Source: Gordonibacter sp. Marseille-P4307
GTDB lineage: Bacteria; Actinomycetota; Coriobacteriia; Coriobacteriales; Eggerthellaceae
Direction of reading: 5' to 3'
NCBI RefSeq assembly: GCF_900604965.1
Contig: NZ_UWPD01000001.1
Location: 372,001-436,000, forward strand
Length of the DNA: 64,000 nucleotides
The notes beneath the pieces were generated by a model, which did no database searches, was not told the origin of the DNA, and saw nothing but the letters and a program-made list of their open reading frames with translations. The position numbers were made by a program, and so were the translations under genes. This document shows, piece by piece, positions 14,534-22,343 of this stretch. Within the stretch, counting starts at the first letter, position 1, and each line of letters opens with the position of its first letter.

Positions 14534-14968
14534 ATGGTTTCTCGCCGAGCCCTTATCGGAATATCGGCCCTCGTATGGCTTTGGGCCGGATACAACGTCT
14601 TGCGCATCGGCGTGGCCGCGTACGGTCCGTTCGTCGAACCTGCAACCTTCGCCCTTACCGCTGCGGTGTTCGCCCCCTTCTTCGTCATGTTCCAGAAGCT
14701 GGCCCGCGAGAACCGCGTGCGCATTTCGAACATGCCGACGGAGAAGAACAACCCCTTCACATTCTTCACCGTTCGGTCCTACGTCATCATCGCGCTCATG
14801 ATGACGCTGGGCCTCGTGCTGCGCGGCATCCCGGCCGTCCCTCGGTTCTTCATCGCGTTTTTCTACGTGGGGCTGGGATCCGCTCTGTTCCTTGCGGGCG
14901 CCAGCTACGTGCTGTACCTCGTCCGATTCGATCGCTACGCCGAGGCCGACACGCACGCGGCCTGCTAG
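14534..14968 (+). CDS. Small integral membrane protein, function unknown
   Basis: A 144-aa protein with about four hydrophobic segments (residues 6-26, 34-53, 82-97 and 102-128), separated by a polar loop containing ENRVRISNMPTEKNNP. I recognise no family. AAAGAAG sits just upstream of the ATG at 14534. It is followed by an A/T-rich stretch and then the promoter of the next operon, so it is probably monocistronic. Confidence 0.7.
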   Translation: MVSRRALIGISALVWLWAGYNVLRIGVAAYGPFVEPATFALTAAVFAPFFVMFQKLARENRVRISNMPTEKNNPFTFFTVRSYVIIALMMTLGLVLRGIPAVPRFFIAFFYVGLGSALFLAGASYVLYLVRFDRYAEADTHAAC

Positions 14969-15066
14969 AGATGTTCAATTTCTATAACTTTTCTTTCTAA
15001 ATGAACTTGCGTTCCTGTTGATTTAAGCCTGCAATCTGGGCAAACTCTCGCCATTCCCCAACGAAT

Positions 15067-15075
15067 TGCTATAAT
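15067..15075 (+). promoter_or_regulatory. Extended -10 promoter for the YidC-TagF operon
   Basis: TGCTATAAT is an exact TGnTATAAT extended -10 element, 57 bases before the operon start codon. No good -35 box is present at 16-18 bp, which extended -10 promoters tolerate. Confidence 0.6.
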
Positions 15076-15131
15076 GTTCGACCGCTGCATACGCATGGGC
15101 GCACCGCGCCCTCGAACCGCAAAGGGGAACC

Positions 15132-17072
15132 ATGTTCGCACCCATTGCCGACCTTTTGGCACTGATCGTTCAACCGTGCTACGACCTCACGGGAAACTGG
15201 TGGATCGCCATCCTGCTGTTCACCGTCATCATCAAGATCATCCTCATCCCGATGTCGCTGTGGTGCCAGAAGAACAGCATCGTCATGGTCGACGTCATGC
15301 CGGAGATCAACCGCATCAAGGTGCGCTACTTCGGCGACAGCGAAACCATCGGCGAAAAGCAAAGCGAGCTGTTCAAGCAAAAGCACTACCATCCGCTGCT
15401 CAGCCTCGTGCCCTTGGCTGTTCAGATCATCATCCTGTTCGGCCTCGTCGACGTCATCCACTCCATCACCGACCACGGCGCCCCCGGAACCGAGTTCTTG
15501 GGAATGGTGCCCGTAACCGACGGGGGACTGTCCTGGATCATGCCCGTTTTGGCGGGGCTGTCCGCCGTGATCATGGGCTACGCGCAAAACCGCATCAACC
15601 CGCTGCAGAAAGAGCAGTCGAGGGCCGAGAAGAACATGACCAACGGCCTGTCCATCGGGCTGTCGCTGGTGCTGGGCGTGTTCGTGGCCGCCGGCATGTG
15701 CTTCTACTGGATCTGCTCGAACCTCACCTCCATCGCCATCCAGGCGCTCATGAACATCATGATCAAGCCCGAGAAGTACATCGACTACGACGACTTGGCG
15801 GCCAGCCGCGTCCAGCTGGACGAGCTAAGCAAGCTCGACAGCAACACGTCGAAGTGGTACCAGAGGAACCCCCTCGCCAAGCGCGAGAAGGCCGACTACA
15901 AGCGCTTCTTCAACGTGGTGAACAAGCACATCGTGTTCTACTCCGAGGGCAGCGGCTTCTACAAGTACTTCAAGGGAGCCATCGAGCACCTGCTGGCCCA
16001 TTCCGACTGCGTCATCCACTACGTGACCAACGATCCGAACGACCAGGTCTTCGAGATCGCGAAAGAGCAGCCCCGCATCCGCCCCTACTACATCGCCCAG
16101 CAGCGCGCCATTACCCTCATGATGAAGATGGACGCCGATGTGGTGGTGTCTACCCTGGAGGATCTGGACAACTACTACATCAAGCGCTCCTACGTGCGCC
16201 ACGACATCGAATACGTGTTCATGTTCCACCACATGACCTCCACCCACCTCACCCCCACCAAGGAGGCCTACGACCACTACGACACGCTGCTGTGCGTCGG
16301 ACCGCACCAAAAGCAGGAGATCCGCCGCGCCGAAGAGCTGTACAGGCTGCCTGCGAAGAACCTGGTGGAGTGCGGCTACGACCTACTCGATGAGAACATC
16401 GCCTCGTATGCGCAGCTGGTCGAGGACCAGAAATCGGGTAAGCGTGCGAAAAACGAGCGCCCGGTGGTGCTGATCGCCCCGTCGTGGCAGGAAAGCAACC
16501 TGCTGGACCTGTGCTTCGACGACATGATGAAGTCCCTGCTGAACCGCGGATGGCGCATCATCGTGCGCCCCCATCCCGAATACACCAAGCGCTACCACGC
16601 TCGCTGGGAGGCCCTGCAGAAGCGCTACGCCCACGTTGACGAGGCCGACCTCTACTTCGAGCGCGACTTCTCGTCCAACAACACCATCTTCACCTCCGAT
16701 CTCATCATCACGGACTGGTCATCGGTGTTCTGCGAATTCTCCTTCTCCACGCTCAAGCCCACCGTGTTCATCGATACGCCCATGAAGGTAGGGAACAAAG
16801 ACTACGAAGAGCTGGGCATCGAACCCACCGACATCACCTTGAGAAACGAGGTGGGCGTATCGTTCGACCCCGAAAAGCTGGAGGGTTTGGGCGACGCCGT
16901 GGCCGACATGATCGAGAACGCCGATCGGTGGAGCGAGACCATCCGTGCAGTGCGCGACGAAACCATCTACAACGTGGGCGGCGGGCGCGAAGCCGCAGGC
17001 GAGTACCTGTTGGAAGCCATCCTCTCCCATCAGCGGCAGCGCGCCGACAAGGAGGCTGAAAACGATGAGTAG
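15132..17072 (+). CDS. YidC/Oxa1 insertase domain fused to CDP-glycerol glycerophosphotransferase
   Basis: Residues 1-215 resemble YidC/Oxa1: GNWWIAILLFTVIIKIILIP, the cytosolic hairpin with MPEINRIKVRYFGD, HPLLSLVPLAVQIIILFGL and FYWICSNLTSIAIQALMNI, giving about five membrane helices. The groove arginine of YidC is replaced by Lys. After a charged linker, residues about 255-635 form a TagB/TagF-type domain with VLIAPSWQESN, IIVRPHPEY and SDLIITDWSSV, the family that polymerises glycerol phosphate from CDP-glycerol. The product is 646 aa. AGGGG precedes the ATG. It overlaps the next gene by 8 bases, so it belongs with two sulfatase-like enzymes in an envelope-polymer operon. Whether the first half still inserts proteins or serves as a membrane anchor is unknown. 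Confidence 0.88.
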   Translation: MFAPIADLLALIVQPCYDLTGNWWIAILLFTVIIKIILIPMSLWCQKNSIVMVDVMPEINRIKVRYFGDSETIGEKQSELFKQKHYHPLLSLVPLAVQIIILFGLVDVIHSITDHGAPGTEFLGMVPVTDGGLSWIMPVLAGLSAVIMGYAQNRINPLQKEQSRAEKNMTNGLSIGLSLVLGVFVAAGMCFYWICSNLTSIAIQALMNIMIKPEKYIDYDDLAASRVQLDELSKLDSNTSKWYQRNPLAKREKADYKRFFNVVNKHIVFYSEGSGFYKYFKGAIEHLLAHSDCVIHYVTNDPNDQVFEIAKEQPRIRPYYIAQQRAITLMMKMDADVVVSTLEDLDNYYIKRSYVRHDIEYVFMFHHMTSTHLTPTKEAYDHYDTLLCVGPHQKQEIRRAEELYRLPAKNLVECGYDLLDENIASYAQLVEDQKSGKRAKNERPVVLIAPSWQESNLLDLCFDDMMKSLLNRGWRIIVRPHPEYTKRYHARWEALQKRYAHVDEADLYFERDFSSNNTIFTSDLIITDWSSVFCEFSFSTLKPTVFIDTPMKVGNKDYEELGIEPTDITLRNEVGVSFDPEKLEGLGDAVADMIENADRWSETIRAVRDETIYNVGGGREAAGEYLLEAILSHQRQRADKEAENDE

Positions 17073-19170
17073 ACGCCTCGCGCTGACCGCATTCGACGCC
17101 GCCGGCATCGCGCTGACCGCCTTCGTTCTCTCGTTCGCCTTCGTCCAGCCCGCCTGGGCCTACGTCGATCCGTCGGTCATGACCTATACCATCCAGGCGC
17201 TTGCCGGCGTGGCGGTGGCGCTTTCCACCGTCATGGGCGTGCTCATGAGGCGCACCCGCAAAAAGCTGCTGAAGTCCCTGAACATCGATGAGAACCGCAA
17301 CAAGGAGGTCGAAGCGGACGTCAGCCGCATCGACCCGGAAACCGGCAAAGCCATCGTGTCGGACTGCGCAGATCCGAAAGAGCGCCGCTCCCGCAAACGA
17401 TCGGACGCCCCCGGCAAGGGATACGCCCCCCGGTGGACCACGCGCCTTGTTTTGGCGCTCCTCGTGTCGCTGTTCTCGGTGGGCACGCTGTTCATCGTCG
17501 CGCCGCTTGAAATCGTGGCCGCCTCCAAGGGCAGCCTCACCTACGGGCTGACCGATGTCTGGCAGCCGGTCGTCCTCAGCGCCTTGGCGCTTACGTGCGC
17601 CCTTACCGTGCTGCTCACCGTGCTGCGCGGACGGGCGTTCAACCTGGTCCTCATGGTGGCCTTCTCGCTCGGGCTGGCCTGCTGGGTGCAGGCGATGTTC
17701 CTCAACCACGGCCTGCCCGCCGCAAACGGCGGCACCGTGAAGTGGACCGACTATAAAACCATCGGCTGCATCTCGGCGGCTGCATGGGTGCTTATCGCGA
17801 CCGTCCCGTTTGCGCTCAGCTCCCTCAAGCGCCAGGCTACCCAGTTCGTCTGCGGGGCCCTGTGCGCCGCGCTTATCGTGGTGCAGGCCGTGGCGGTGGG
17901 AAGCCTGTTCGCGCCCGAGTCCATCCAGAGGGCATCGCTCACCGGCGACGGAGACAGCTCCGATCTGTCCGACTACCTTATGAGCGAAGAGGGCCTGTTC
18001 GACGTTTCGTCGAAGCACAACGTGGTGTTCTTCGTCTTGGACACCTACGACACTCAGTTCGCCAAGGACTCGCTGGCGAAAGATCCCGCCATGTTCAACG
18101 AGCTTTCGGGGTTCACCTGGTTCGACAACTCAGTGGGCTCGATGATCCCCACGCGCTACGGCAACGTGTTCCTGCTGACAGGCACCATGCCGCAAGAAGG
18201 GCAGCGCTGGGGCGACTTTTTGGCCGTGCGCTACCAGAACAGCAGCTACCTGGGCGACATCCAAGACCTCGGGTACTCCATCGGCATCTACTCCGACACC
18301 CTGGGCGAGCAGCACCTCAGCGCCGAAGACACCAAGCGCCTCATCTACGACCGCACCGTCAACATCCGCCCCGTCACGGAATCGACGATGGACGTCAAGG
18401 GTTCGGTTATCGCGCTGGCCCAATGCGCGCTCTACCGCGATATGCCCTGGTTCGGGAAGCCCTTCTTCTGGTTCTACACCGACGAGATCAACCAGCGCAT
18501 GAGCGATACGTCCGAAGCGAAGGGCCTTGCGTCCATCCCCTACGTCATGAACGATGCGAAATGGGGCAACGACGTGAACCGTCTGGGAGTCAAGGTAAAC
18601 GACGCGAACTCCGGCGATGCCGGATCGTTCCGCTACATCCACATGACGGGAACACACTGGCCCTACAACGTCAACGAGCGGGGCGAGGACATCGGACTGT
18701 ACAACGCCACGCTCGATCAGCAGACTCGCGGCATCACCAAAATCGTCAGCGACTACATCCGCAAGCTGAAGGAAAACGGCACCTACGACAACACCACCAT
18801 CGTCATCACGGCCGATCACGGCGACTACTATCCCATCACCGGTCCTCTGGACAAGCCCACCAGCCCCATCGTGATGGTGAAGCCCGCCCAGTCGGCGGAA
18901 CTGGACGCCCAGCCCATGAAGGTGAACCACGCGCCCATCTGGGCCGGAGACATCCTCCCTACGGTCATCGAGTCCATGGGAGGAGATGCGGGCAAATACG
19001 GTCCCACGCTGTTCGACATCCCGGAAAACCAACCGCGCGAGCGCTTCTACCTGGAAACCATCAACAACGACACCGGCGACGTGGCGGCGCTGCAGTACGC
19101 CGTCAACGGCGACGCCCTGGATATGAGTAGCTGGCAGCTTACCGGCAAAGAATGGAGGATCTGGGAGTGA
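17065..19170 (+). CDS. Membrane sulfatase/alkaline-phosphatase-fold enzyme (LtaS-like), copy 1
   Basis: The ATG at 17065 follows AAGGAGG and overlaps the upstream stop. The 701-aa product has a signal-like helix ending FVQPAWA, a second helix after YVDPSVMTYTIQALAGV, several further helices to about residue 300, then an external alkaline-phosphatase-fold domain: VVFFVLDTYDTQF (metal Asp), GSMIPTRYGN (candidate nucleophile Thr), HMTGTHWPYN and VITADHGDYYP. This layout recalls lipoteichoic-acid synthases and phosphoglycerol transferases. Next to a glycerophosphotransferase, a role in adding glycerol phosphate to a surface polymer is reasonable but inferred. Closely related to the next gene. Confidence 0.85.
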   Translation: MSRRLALTAFDAAGIALTAFVLSFAFVQPAWAYVDPSVMTYTIQALAGVAVALSTVMGVLMRRTRKKLLKSLNIDENRNKEVEADVSRIDPETGKAIVSDCADPKERRSRKRSDAPGKGYAPRWTTRLVLALLVSLFSVGTLFIVAPLEIVAASKGSLTYGLTDVWQPVVLSALALTCALTVLLTVLRGRAFNLVLMVAFSLGLACWVQAMFLNHGLPAANGGTVKWTDYKTIGCISAAAWVLIATVPFALSSLKRQATQFVCGALCAALIVVQAVAVGSLFAPESIQRASLTGDGDSSDLSDYLMSEEGLFDVSSKHNVVFFVLDTYDTQFAKDSLAKDPAMFNELSGFTWFDNSVGSMIPTRYGNVFLLTGTMPQEGQRWGDFLAVRYQNSSYLGDIQDLGYSIGIYSDTLGEQHLSAEDTKRLIYDRTVNIRPVTESTMDVKGSVIALAQCALYRDMPWFGKPFFWFYTDEINQRMSDTSEAKGLASIPYVMNDAKWGNDVNRLGVKVNDANSGDAGSFRYIHMTGTHWPYNVNERGEDIGLYNATLDQQTRGITKIVSDYIRKLKENGTYDNTTIVITADHGDYYPITGPLDKPTSPIVMVKPAQSAELDAQPMKVNHAPIWAGDILPTVIESMGGDAGKYGPTLFDIPENQPRERFYLETINNDTGDVAALQYAVNGDALDMSSWQLTGKEWRIWE

Positions 19171-19172
19171 CG

Positions 19173-21305
19173 ATGAACCGCCCGAACCCCCGCACCCGCG
19201 CGCGCCTGTGCGTGGTGGCCTTCGACCTTGCGGCCTGCATCCTTGCCGCACTGCCGCTGTCGCTGGCCTTCGTCCAGCCCGCCTGGGCCTACGTCGATCC
19301 GTCGGTCATGACCTACACCATCCAGGCGCTTGCCGGCGTGGCGGTGGCGCTGTCGGCCGTGGCGGGAGTAGCCATGCGCCGCACGCGCAAAGCGCTGTTC
19401 AAGGCGCTGAACATAGACACGAACCGCAACAAGGAGGTCGAGGCCGACGTTTGCCGCATCGATCCCGACACGGGACGACCCGTTAAGGACGAAGCGGCAG
19501 GCGCAGCCGTCCAGGCGCCCCGAAAAGCCGCCGGCAAACCCCGCGCGCACGGATACGCCCCCGGCTGGAAAACCCGCGTCCCCCTCGCCCTCGCCACGTC
19601 CGCCTTCTTCGTGTTCACCCTGTTCGTAGTGGCTCCGTACGAGATCGTCGCCGCAAGCGCCGGCAGCGTGTTCTTCTCTTTGAACGACGTTTGGCAGCCC
19701 ATCGCGATAGCGGCGATAGCGCTCGTCGCCGCACTGGCATTCCTGATCTCCCTTCTGCGCGGGCGCGCCTTCAACCTGGCCCTTCTGCTGGTGTTCGGGA
19801 TCGGTCTGAGCTGCTATGCGCAGGCTCTGTTCCTGAACGTGGGCCTTCCTCCCTCGGACGGCCACAGCATCACCTGGAACGACTACCGCAAGCCCATGGT
19901 TGTATCGGGCATCGTCTGGCTGGTTCTGGTTATAGGGCCGCTTCAGCTCAGCAAGGTGAACCGCCAGCGCACGCAACTGGGAGCGGCGGCGCTGTCGCTG
20001 GCCCTCGTCATCGTGCAGGGCGTCGGCGTAGGAAGCCTGTTCGCCAACGCCGATACGGCGGGAACGTCAAGCGGCAAGGCCATCGTAACCGAGCAGGGGC
20101 TCTACGACGTCTCCTCGAAGAGAAACGTGGTGGTGTTCGTCCTTGACACCTACGATACGCAGTTCCTGCAAAGCACGCTGCAGGCGGCGCCCGACCTGCT
20201 GGACGACTTCACGGGATTCACCTGGTACAGGGATTCGCTGGGCTCGATGATCCCCACGCGCTACGGCCTGTCGTTTTTGCTGCACGGCCAGTACCCCCAG
20301 GAAGACGAGGATTTCGGCACCTACCTGAACCAGCGCTACAAGCGCAGCCGCTTCCTGCAAGACGTTCAGAGCCTGAACTTCTCGACCGGCATCTACACCG
20401 ACACGCTGGGCACGCAGTTCCTCTCCGATGAAGAGGCGAACTCGCTGGTGAACAGCAAAACCATCAACATCCATCCCGCATCCAACACCATCACCAGCTG
20501 GAACAGCACCCTTAGAGCGCTTGCGAAGTGCTCTCTGTATCGCGACCTGCCCTGGATGCTCAAGCCCTTCTTCTGGTTCTACACCGACGAGATCAACCAG
20601 GCCACCAATGCGGACAACCCCGACATCGACCCGGCGAACAAGCCCTACATCATGAACGACGCCGGCTACTACAACTCGCTGAAGCAGCGCGGCCTCGCCT
20701 TCCAGGAAAACGACGACCGATACGACGGAGCCTTCCGCTTCATCCACATGACGGGCACCCACTGGCCCTATAACCTGGACGAAAACGGCAACGACATCGG
20801 GCTGCACAACGCGAACCTCACCCAGCAGGCGCGCGGCTGCATGAAACCCGTCCAGCACTACATCAACCAGCTGAAGCAGATGGGGGTGTACGACGAAACC
20901 ACCATCATCATCACGGCCGACCATGGCGACTGGTACCTCACCGAGAACCCCCTCGAGAAGGTGACCGTCCCCTACATGCTGGTGAAGCCCGCCCAGTCAG
21001 CCCAGTTGGACGCCCAGCCCTACAAGGTGTCGCAGGCCCCGATTGCAGCCGAAGACGTGCTGCCCACCTGCATCAAGTACATGGGCGGCGATCCTTCGGT
21101 CTATCCGGGCTATTCGATGGACGAAATCCCCGAACATCTCCAGCGCCCGCGCTTCTTCAATATGACGCTGGATCGCGACGCGAAAGACTACAAGATCATC
21201 CAGTACGAAGTGAACGGCGACTCGCTGGACTTCTCGAACTGGAAGCTCACGGGAGTGTCGTGGGACGTAGGCGAAGGGTCGAAAGCCAAGGGCGACCACG
21301 ACTAA
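19173..21305 (+). CDS. Membrane sulfatase/alkaline-phosphatase-fold enzyme (LtaS-like), copy 2
   Basis: Paralogue of the preceding gene, starting 2 bases after its stop with GGGAG 5 bases upstream (an ATG at 19152 lies inside the upstream gene). It is 710 aa. The N-terminal block AYVDPSVMTYTIQALAGV is identical in both. The catalytic segments are again present: VVVFVLDTYDTQF, GSMIPTRYGL, HMTGTHWPYN and ITADHGDWY. The regions between them have diverged, especially the loop around residues 100-135. The pair looks like an old tandem duplication with possibly different acceptors. A strong terminator closes the operon. Confidence 0.85.
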   Translation: MNRPNPRTRARLCVVAFDLAACILAALPLSLAFVQPAWAYVDPSVMTYTIQALAGVAVALSAVAGVAMRRTRKALFKALNIDTNRNKEVEADVCRIDPDTGRPVKDEAAGAAVQAPRKAAGKPRAHGYAPGWKTRVPLALATSAFFVFTLFVVAPYEIVAASAGSVFFSLNDVWQPIAIAAIALVAALAFLISLLRGRAFNLALLLVFGIGLSCYAQALFLNVGLPPSDGHSITWNDYRKPMVVSGIVWLVLVIGPLQLSKVNRQRTQLGAAALSLALVIVQGVGVGSLFANADTAGTSSGKAIVTEQGLYDVSSKRNVVVFVLDTYDTQFLQSTLQAAPDLLDDFTGFTWYRDSLGSMIPTRYGLSFLLHGQYPQEDEDFGTYLNQRYKRSRFLQDVQSLNFSTGIYTDTLGTQFLSDEEANSLVNSKTINIHPASNTITSWNSTLRALAKCSLYRDLPWMLKPFFWFYTDEINQATNADNPDIDPANKPYIMNDAGYYNSLKQRGLAFQENDDRYDGAFRFIHMTGTHWPYNLDENGNDIGLHNANLTQQARGCMKPVQHYINQLKQMGVYDETTIIITADHGDWYLTENPLEKVTVPYMLVKPAQSAQLDAQPYKVSQAPIAAEDVLPTCIKYMGGDPSVYPGYSMDEIPEHLQRPRFFNMTLDRDAKDYKIIQYEVNGDSLDFSNWKLTGVSWDVGEGSKAKGDHD

Positions 21306-21397
21306 CGACGGCAAACAGCGAACCGGCGGGCCCCGCAAGGACCCGCCGGCCGTCCCAAGCACCGCCGCAGCCATCGCAAGCCGACGGCGCCCGCTTC

Positions 21398-21440
21398 GGC
21401 GGCCGATGCGCTTTGCCAGTGCATCGGCCGCCTGCTTTTT
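21398..21440 (+). terminator. Rho-independent terminator of the envelope operon
   Basis: A perfect 12-bp stem (GGCGGCCGATGC with its complement at 21421-21432) has an 11-base loop and is followed by TGCTTTTT. A weaker GC hairpin lies at about 21324-21352. Confidence 0.9.
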
Positions 21441-21446
21441 ATTCCC

Positions 21447-22343
21447 CTACAGCTTGAAACCCAAAGTGACCAGCACCTCTTTGGGCATCATGAAGCGCAC
21501 GGTTTTCTGGGGGTCCACCATCTGACACACCTGCACATCGCCCTGAAGCGAGAACAGCATAGCCGCCTCGGCCTCGGTGGCTTTCGTGCGAGAGCACACC
21601 AGGTCAAGCATGTCGTGCACGGCGATGTCGGCCGCCGCATCCAGCGTGTCGGCCGAAGCGATGGTTCCGAAATGAGTCTCGTTCTCAATAAGCGGATTCG
21701 TCAGAGAAAGTTCGGGGAGCGCCGTCAGCGTGACGGTCGCGTGCCCTGCAGCCTCGGCGCCCGACACCCCTATCTCGCCGTCGCCCATACACGCATGCAT
21801 GTCGCCGCATCCGAACAGCGCCCCGTCAACGGCCACGGGAAAGTACAGGGTCGCCCCGACGGTAACGGCCTTGTTATCCATGTTGCCGCCGTGCGACCCG
21901 GGAGTTCCGCAGTTTACGGGCGCGCCTGCAGGAGCGACTCCGATCACGCCGATCATGGGGTTCAAGGGAAGGCGCAGCTTATCGGAAAACACCAAGCTGT
22001 CGCCCTGAATCGTACCGAACATCGTGGACCAGTCGTCGAAGCGGTCGCCCAGAACGCCCTCGTCCTTGCCGGTGGCGGCAACCGCGCAGCCATCGAATTC
22101 GATGGCGTCGATATGCACCTTCAGCGCGCCTCCCGCCACAGCCCCGTTCACGTACACCGGGCCGGTGGCCGGATTGATGCGGTCCCAATCGATGGCATCA
22201 AGCGCATCAGCCTGACTTCTCACCTGGTCGCCGAAGCAATCGGATGTGCGTATACGCACCGTGTCCCCCGACTCCACCGTCAGCGCAGGCTCAAGATCCT
22301 TGTCGAACGCATACAGCATCCGCTCGTTACCCAACTCGATCAT
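21447..22343 (-). CDS. Acetamidase/formamidase family protein
   Basis: FmdA/AmdA enzymes release ammonia from short amides. Family segments are NPATGPVYVNGAVAGGALKV, PLNPMIGVIGVAPAG, GSHGGNMDNK, LFGCGDMHACMGDGE and SLQGDVQVCQMVDP. The ATG at 22343 has AAGGAGG 7 bases upstream and gives 298 aa; an earlier ATG overlaps that site. Substrate specificity cannot be read. No transporter or urease genes are nearby. Confidence 0.9.
   Translation of the reverse strand: MIELGNERMLYAFDKDLEPALTVESGDTVRIRTSDCFGDQVRSQADALDAIDWDRINPATGPVYVNGAVAGGALKVHIDAIEFDGCAVAATGKDEGVLGDRFDDWSTMFGTIQGDSLVFSDKLRLPLNPMIGVIGVAPAGAPVNCGTPGSHGGNMDNKAVTVGATLYFPVAVDGALFGCGDMHACMGDGEIGVSGAEAAGHATVTLTALPELSLTNPLIENETHFGTIASADTLDAAADIAVHDMLDLVCSRTKATEAEAAMLFSLQGDVQVCQMVDPQKTVRFMMPKEVLVTLGFKL

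Follow-up and report, generated by a model that had tools for sequence, protein, structure and literature searches.

One open reading frame in the 64,000-nucleotide stretch of DNA analysed here (the window) joins a YidC/Oxa1-type membrane domain to a TagF-like transferase. An earlier note on this DNA described the product as a YidC-type insertase fused to a CDP-glycerol glycerophosphotransferase and proposed that it couples membrane insertion, or a membrane anchor evolved from YidC, to the assembly of a teichoic-type polymer. The question raised by the locus is what an insertase fold does in one chain with such an enzyme, and what the chain helps to make. Here we present the features of the fusion gene and its neighbours (Table 1), together with their occurrence in related genomes and a proposed mechanism.

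Table 1. Features of the fusion gene and its predicted operon (positions within the window).
Feature	Position	Strand	Basis or remark
YidC-TagF-like fusion gene	15132..17072	+	single uninterrupted ORF, 646 aa; 86 full-length homologues
YidC/Oxa1 domain, residues 1-215	15132..15776	+	Pfam 60KD_IMP; AlphaFold2; fold match to YidC
Lys35 codon, counterpart of the YidC groove Arg	15234..15236	+	Lys in 87/87 rows
Charged linker with helix, residues 216-248	15777..15875	+	AlphaFold2 confidence low at 237-243
TagF/TarL-like GT-B phosphotransferase domain, residues 249-636	15876..17039	+	Pfam Glyphos_transf; TagF/TarL fold match
His366 codon	16227..16229	+	invariant, 87/87 rows
RPHP motif, residues 479-482	16566..16577	+	invariant in alignment
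TDWSS motif, residues 527-531	16710..16724	+	D528, W529 and S530 invariant
LtaS-like gene 1	17065..19170	+	Pfam Sulfatase E 6.7e-6; NCBIfam LtaS E 1.6e-4
LtaS-like gene 2, tandem paralogue	19152..21305	+	Pfam Sulfatase E 6.9e-7; overlaps gene 1
Predicted promoter TCGCCA-16-TATAAT, extended -10 TG	15048..15075	+	10/12 consensus matches
Terminator-like stem, 15 pairs, T-rich tail	21398..21432	+	3' end of predicted operon

The reading of two domains in one frame was borne out by Pfam, with both matches above the curated cut-offs: 60KD_IMP (PF02096) covers residues 23-208 (E 3.1e-29, 102.5 bits against a cut-off of 35) and Glyphos_transf (PF04464) covers residues 263-546 (E 1.4e-9, 37.8 bits against 22.1). 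The YidC/Oxa1 domain comprises an amphipathic helix, five transmembrane (TM) helices, the C1 hairpin and the C2 loop. An AlphaFold2 model of the whole protein, built on 14 natural homologues, had a mean pLDDT of 85. Because the YidC half was poorly tested when the whole fusion was compared with the PDB, residues 1-215 were folded (pLDDT 90) and searched separately. They matched the YidC of B. halodurans (3wo7) with a Z of 19.3 (rmsd 2.4 over 196 residues) and that of E. coli (6al2) with a Z of 17.8, the best chain outside the YidC/Oxa1 family reaching a Z of 5.3; the first 215 residues, whose fold the earlier note had named as a possible weak point, are thus predicted to be a YidC fold. The transferase half was closest to TagF (3l7k; Z 21.6, rmsd 4.9 over 330 residues) and TarL (8va1; Z 21.0), with other GT-B enzymes trailing TagF by 1-2 Z. 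A profile search of PDB sequences with this half gave no match even at E 10, so its kinship with TagF rests on Pfam and on the fold. A repeat scan of the fusion gene region found repeats at chance level only.

The 86 full-length homologues were aligned with the window protein (87 rows; a few organisms entered the 86 twice, through two tools, which leaves somewhat fewer independent genomes). In the transferase half, His366, Arg479-Pro-His-Pro482 and Asp528-Trp-Ser530 are invariant, and from its motif position His366 is the proposed equivalent of TagF H444 and TarL H300. In the YidC half, the invariant residues are Lys35, N48, Pro57, Gln98, Asn153, Gln159, Tyr192, Trp193, Asn197 and Asn208, and the C1 hairpin is retained in the aligned homologues. 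The alignment also bears on the suspicion that yidC and an unrelated tag gene had been brought together by a chimeric assembly or a frameshift. Since the full-length homologues come from many assemblies, most of them independent, and from several families, and one of them lies on the complete Berryella wangjianweii chromosome CP053716, such an artefact is ruled out, its probability being negligible.

The genome of the window (1.8 Mb, 98% complete) has a separate housekeeping yidC at G000:C2:518389, about 130 kb from the fusion and preceded by ORFs read as rpmH, rnpA and YidD-like, which is the setting in which the earlier note had suggested looking for it. The fusion as the sole yidC of the genome was thereby ruled out. 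The groove residue of the housekeeping YidC is Arg, whereas every row of the fusion alignment has Lys35, and the replacement noticed earlier is thus a constant feature of the fused form. An E. coli YidC with R366K and Y517A still complements YidC depletion, and in the groove polarity matters more than exact charge (PMC8920935); the groove Lys therefore does not indicate decay. The genome has no PF04464 match other than the fusion.

The fusion occurs in 13 of 60 related genomes, and one of its forms there is longer, with a large insert in a loop of the YidC domain. A scan of named genomes found relatives encoded in 223 stretches, of which the best 80 were retained. The sources of these best 80 are Eggerthella, Slackia, Adlercreutzia, Ellagibacter, Olsenella, Atopobium and Angelakisella, as well as many MAGs of Eggerthellaceae, Oscillospiraceae and Lachnospiraceae, and B. 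wangjianweii is the nearest named carrier among them (81% identity in the fusion). The search in other Coriobacteriia that had been suggested thus found the fusion recurring, e.g., in Eggerthella, Slackia, Olsenella and Atopobium. (Note that the carriers L083, L087 and L099 are MAGs titled Victivallales, Planctomycetia or Lentisphaerae, for which mis-binning is possible.) In a tree with the housekeeping YidCs of the relatives, the fused YidC domains are split off by one long branch with a support of 100/100, which marks them as a distinct, old subfamily with its own deep clade; a recent local duplication of yidC is ruled out as their origin by this branch. The longer fusions (L039:9158-11461, L040:6831-9107 and L041:9252-11465; 737-767 aa) have about 65 additional residues inserted behind TM helix 2 of their YidC domain. 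One genome of the window's genus (G002, 91% complete) has neither the fusion nor the LicC-choline-kinase protein described below, a double absence hinting at a joint gain or loss of the two.

The fusion gene heads a predicted operon of three genes, the other two encoding LtaS-like phosphotransferases. The promoter-like site upstream was the only one found by a consensus scan of positions 14900-21500, where about 1.4 are expected by chance, and the counts of promoter-like and terminator-like sites around the three genes show no excess above chance. LtaS-like gene 1 was scanned as a longer mechanical frame (16945-19167); its start was read from the sequence as a possible ATG at 17065, within the end of the fusion gene. 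Its product has an AYVDPS N-terminal module, a multi-TM region and an outer domain of the sulfatase/LtaS type. The two genes score 26.1 and 29.3 bits against PF00884 (cut-off 25) and are its only matches in the genome. They reach 20-24 bits against the 970 required for the NCBIfam lipoteichoic acid synthase equivalog, and for this reason are called LtaS-like only. In the LtaS-like part, all 23 aligned rows have Asp332, Thr369, Asp590 and His591, which by analogy with the alkaline-phosphatase superfamily are probably catalytic. The AYVDPS module is common to both tandem genes; in some loci of other lineages it stands alone next to the fusion, as a gene for about 93-100 aa (L087:8061-8363 and L110:5384-5665), weakly similar to Pfam 8xMP. 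Regarding the 45 loci with at least 2.5 kb of flank on each side, an LtaS-like match lies within 1.5 kb of the fusion in 34, always on the same strand, whereas 11 yielded no such match within 3 kb by blast; at least one of these 11 (L098) has a diverged PF00884 gene nearby.

In some species the partners form one chain. A YidC-TagF-AYV-LtaS protein of 1357-1401 aa is encoded as a single ORF in Coriobacteriia (L049, L078, L082 and L085), and the reverse order LtaS-YidC-TagF occurs in a protein of 1200 aa from a Lachnospiraceae MAG (L111:1636-5238). The domains were placed by blast in all five triple fusions and by Pfam in L049, L085 and L111, the Glyphos_transf match of L085 being slightly below the Pfam cut-off. 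Because triple fusions exist in two orders, they are strong evidence that the YidC, TagF-like and LtaS-like parts work together. The LtaS-like operon partners, these triple fusions and the nucleotidyl-activation genes in related loci give good support to the teichoic-type polymer role put forward earlier, and the fusion protein is very probably an envelope phosphopolymer enzyme.

The same chains bear on whether the YidC domain might act as a protein insertase for the co-expressed LtaS-like enzyme or the small AYV protein, timing their insertion with polymer synthesis. Such a role would make use of the full YidC fold, including groove and hairpin; Lys can replace the groove Arg, as the complementing R366K/Y517A variant shows (PMC8920935), and LtaS-like gene 1 overlaps the fusion gene in the window. 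However, the LtaS part of the triple fusions is in the same chain as the YidC domain, in L111 it even precedes it, so that insertion of the client would have to come ahead of the synthesis of its insertase, and a normal yidC is present in the genome. We consider insertion of these partners improbable; coupling to insertion is no better an account than an anchor derived from YidC or a domain that handles lipids.

The substrate name given in the earlier note fared less well than the enzyme family. The TagF-like fold and motifs stand, but CDP-glycerol as the substrate is probably wrong: no TagD-type CDP-glycerol synthase (TIGR01518) was found at cut-off in the genome, which is 98% complete. The only match, with 20.6 bits against a cut-off of 165, reads as CoaD-like, and another CDP-glycerol enzyme is possible; on balance, the donor in the window's genome is likely to be other than CDP-glycerol. 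This genome has two PF12804-choline-kinase fusions, one further PF12804 protein and two LicD genes; all of these lie elsewhere on the chromosome, outside the fusion operon. Two of its proteins (L129:1300-3066 and L127:235-2073, at C2:564485 and C2:1593912) are single chains of three domains, namely a winged-helix HTH, a LicC-like cytidylyltransferase and a choline-kinase-like domain.

In relatives, activation genes are neighbours of the fusion itself. They include a PEP mutase with the two cytidylyltransferase domains PF01467 and PF12804, a TPP decarboxylase, an Fe-ADH, a LicC-choline-kinase (PF12804) fusion with a LicB-like EamA transporter, and a chain uniting a PF12804 cytidylyltransferase with a class I/II aminotransferase (L120:4476-6308), the last likely a PntC joined to an AEP transaminase. 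At least one activation gene of these kinds is present in 19 of the 33 wide-flank loci. The LicC-choline-kinase fusion was found in 12 of the 13 genomes with the YidC fusion as against 20 of the 47 without it (Fisher p 0.0015, a test on the 60 related genomes that ignores shared descent). Since TagD was not found, since LicC-choline-kinase and LicD genes are present, and in view of the neighbours and the co-occurrence in relatives, we infer donors of the LicC/PntC cytidylyl type, CDP-choline-like in the window's genome and CMP-phosphonates in some relatives. No PEP mutase was found in the window's genome; a phosphonate donor was therefore rejected there and is proposed for the relatives only, whose PEP mutase/PntC-type gene set matches the phosphonyl-tailoring logic of PMC6697681, where the later steps of such pathways are described as unknown. 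The LicD proteins could be alternative users of the CDP-choline pool.

In the mechanism that we propose, the fusion protein would be a membrane-embedded phosphotransferase serving an envelope glycolipid or polymer of a teichoic-like, phospho-decorated kind. The C-termini of YidC proteins are cytosolic, so that the transferase should face the nucleotide donors and the catalytic domain of the LtaS-like part should face the outside; the product would have to be handed from one to the other. Embedded in the membrane, the YidC fold would keep the TagF-like domain on the inner side; there, a phospho-alcohol (in relatives, a phosphonate) would be transferred from a CDP or CMP donor to a lipid-linked acceptor. 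The hydrophilic groove would help the polar head of the lipid to reach the outer leaflet, and an LtaS-like enzyme at the outer face, encoded in the same predicted operon or, in some species, in the same chain, would take the passed lipid for further phosphotransfer. The donor in the window's genome, the acceptor and the lipid-passing role of the groove are the parts of this scheme that we infer. LtaS-type enzymes classically use phosphatidylglycerol, and for this reason the LtaS-like enzymes need not use the product of the fusion.

How much the YidC domain contributes is the more tentative part of the scheme. It could instead be a membrane anchor or scaffold only, an old paralogue that holds the TagF-like transferase and its LtaS partner and plays no part in transport. 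TagF and TarL act at the membrane, as such a role would have it, the number and topology of the TM helices alone would suffice, and the deep clade of the fused YidC domains (100/100) makes functional drift likely. Yet in a bare anchor the features of the groove would be expected to be lost, whereas the invariant residues of the YidC half listed above (apart from Pro57, which does not enter this argument) and the C1 hairpin are retained; full retention of the groove residues argues against a bare anchor. Anchoring alone is a plausible reading, and about as likely as lipid passing. We tentatively prefer the YidC domain as a functional lipid-handling module that holds or passes lipid, a reading that is plausible though short of probable; that it actually moves lipid head groups is a somewhat doubtful step further. 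Lipid scrambling in liposomes has been observed with E. coli YidC and several other insertases (PMC10491306), an activity that may be a side effect in vitro. The most specific form of the lipid-handling reading is rather unlikely: the YidC domain would have changed from a protein insertase to a flippase or scramblase serving only a lipid-linked phosphopolymer precursor, in covalent linkage with the cytosolic enzyme that produces this precursor and, in certain species, with the outer enzyme that consumes it as well. If true, it would be a machine for synthesis, translocation and polymerisation in one chain.

Few parts of bacterial envelope polymer synthesis are as poorly understood as the flipping steps. 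That insertases scramble lipids has been seen in the laboratory only recently, and we know of no established use for this activity in bacteria; a natural fusion of the insertase fold with enzymes on both sides of the membrane would give it a possible physiological role. The recurrence of the fusion in dozens of gut bacteria, beside or sometimes in one chain with an outer-face polymer enzyme, suggests that an insertase fold was recruited for building the cell envelope. In gut Coriobacteriia and Clostridia the fusion is also a candidate for the transferase that completes choline and phosphonate decoration, and the automatic names 'YidC' and 'CDP-glycerol glycerophosphotransferase' can mislead when given to it. 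All the domains are members of known families; for the YidC-TagF combination, the LtaS partnership and the triple fusion, no description was found in the open-access literature searched, judged by title and abstract.

Four known systems are closest. With the Pnt and lic clusters (PMC6697681) the loci of relatives share PEP mutase, PF12804 and PF01467 cytidylyltransferases, an aminotransferase, choline kinase and LicD; neither YidC nor a glycerophosphotransferase is mentioned in the paper's main text. With LtaS (PF00884) the operon partner shares an N-terminus with multiple TM helices and a domain of the alkaline-phosphatase type in which Asp, Thr and Asp-His are conserved, but it has the additional AYVDPS module, scores 24 against 970 bits and in some species is fused to YidC-TagF. 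With TagF/TarL (PF04464; 3L7K, 8VA1) the fusion shares the GT-B fold, the invariant His and the RPHP and D-W-S motifs; it differs in having a YidC domain in place of the TagF/TarL N-terminal region, in being about 18% identical over the aligned structure and in a genome where a CDP-glycerol synthase was not found. With YidC/Oxa1/Alb3 (PF02096; B. halodurans YidC2 3WO6/3WO7, E. coli 6AL2) it shares the whole core fold, the C1 hairpin, a positively charged groove residue and the YW..SN motif of the last TM helix, whereas the groove Lys in place of Arg, the separate deep clade, the C-terminal enzyme domain and the position outside the rpmH-rnpA locus set it apart.
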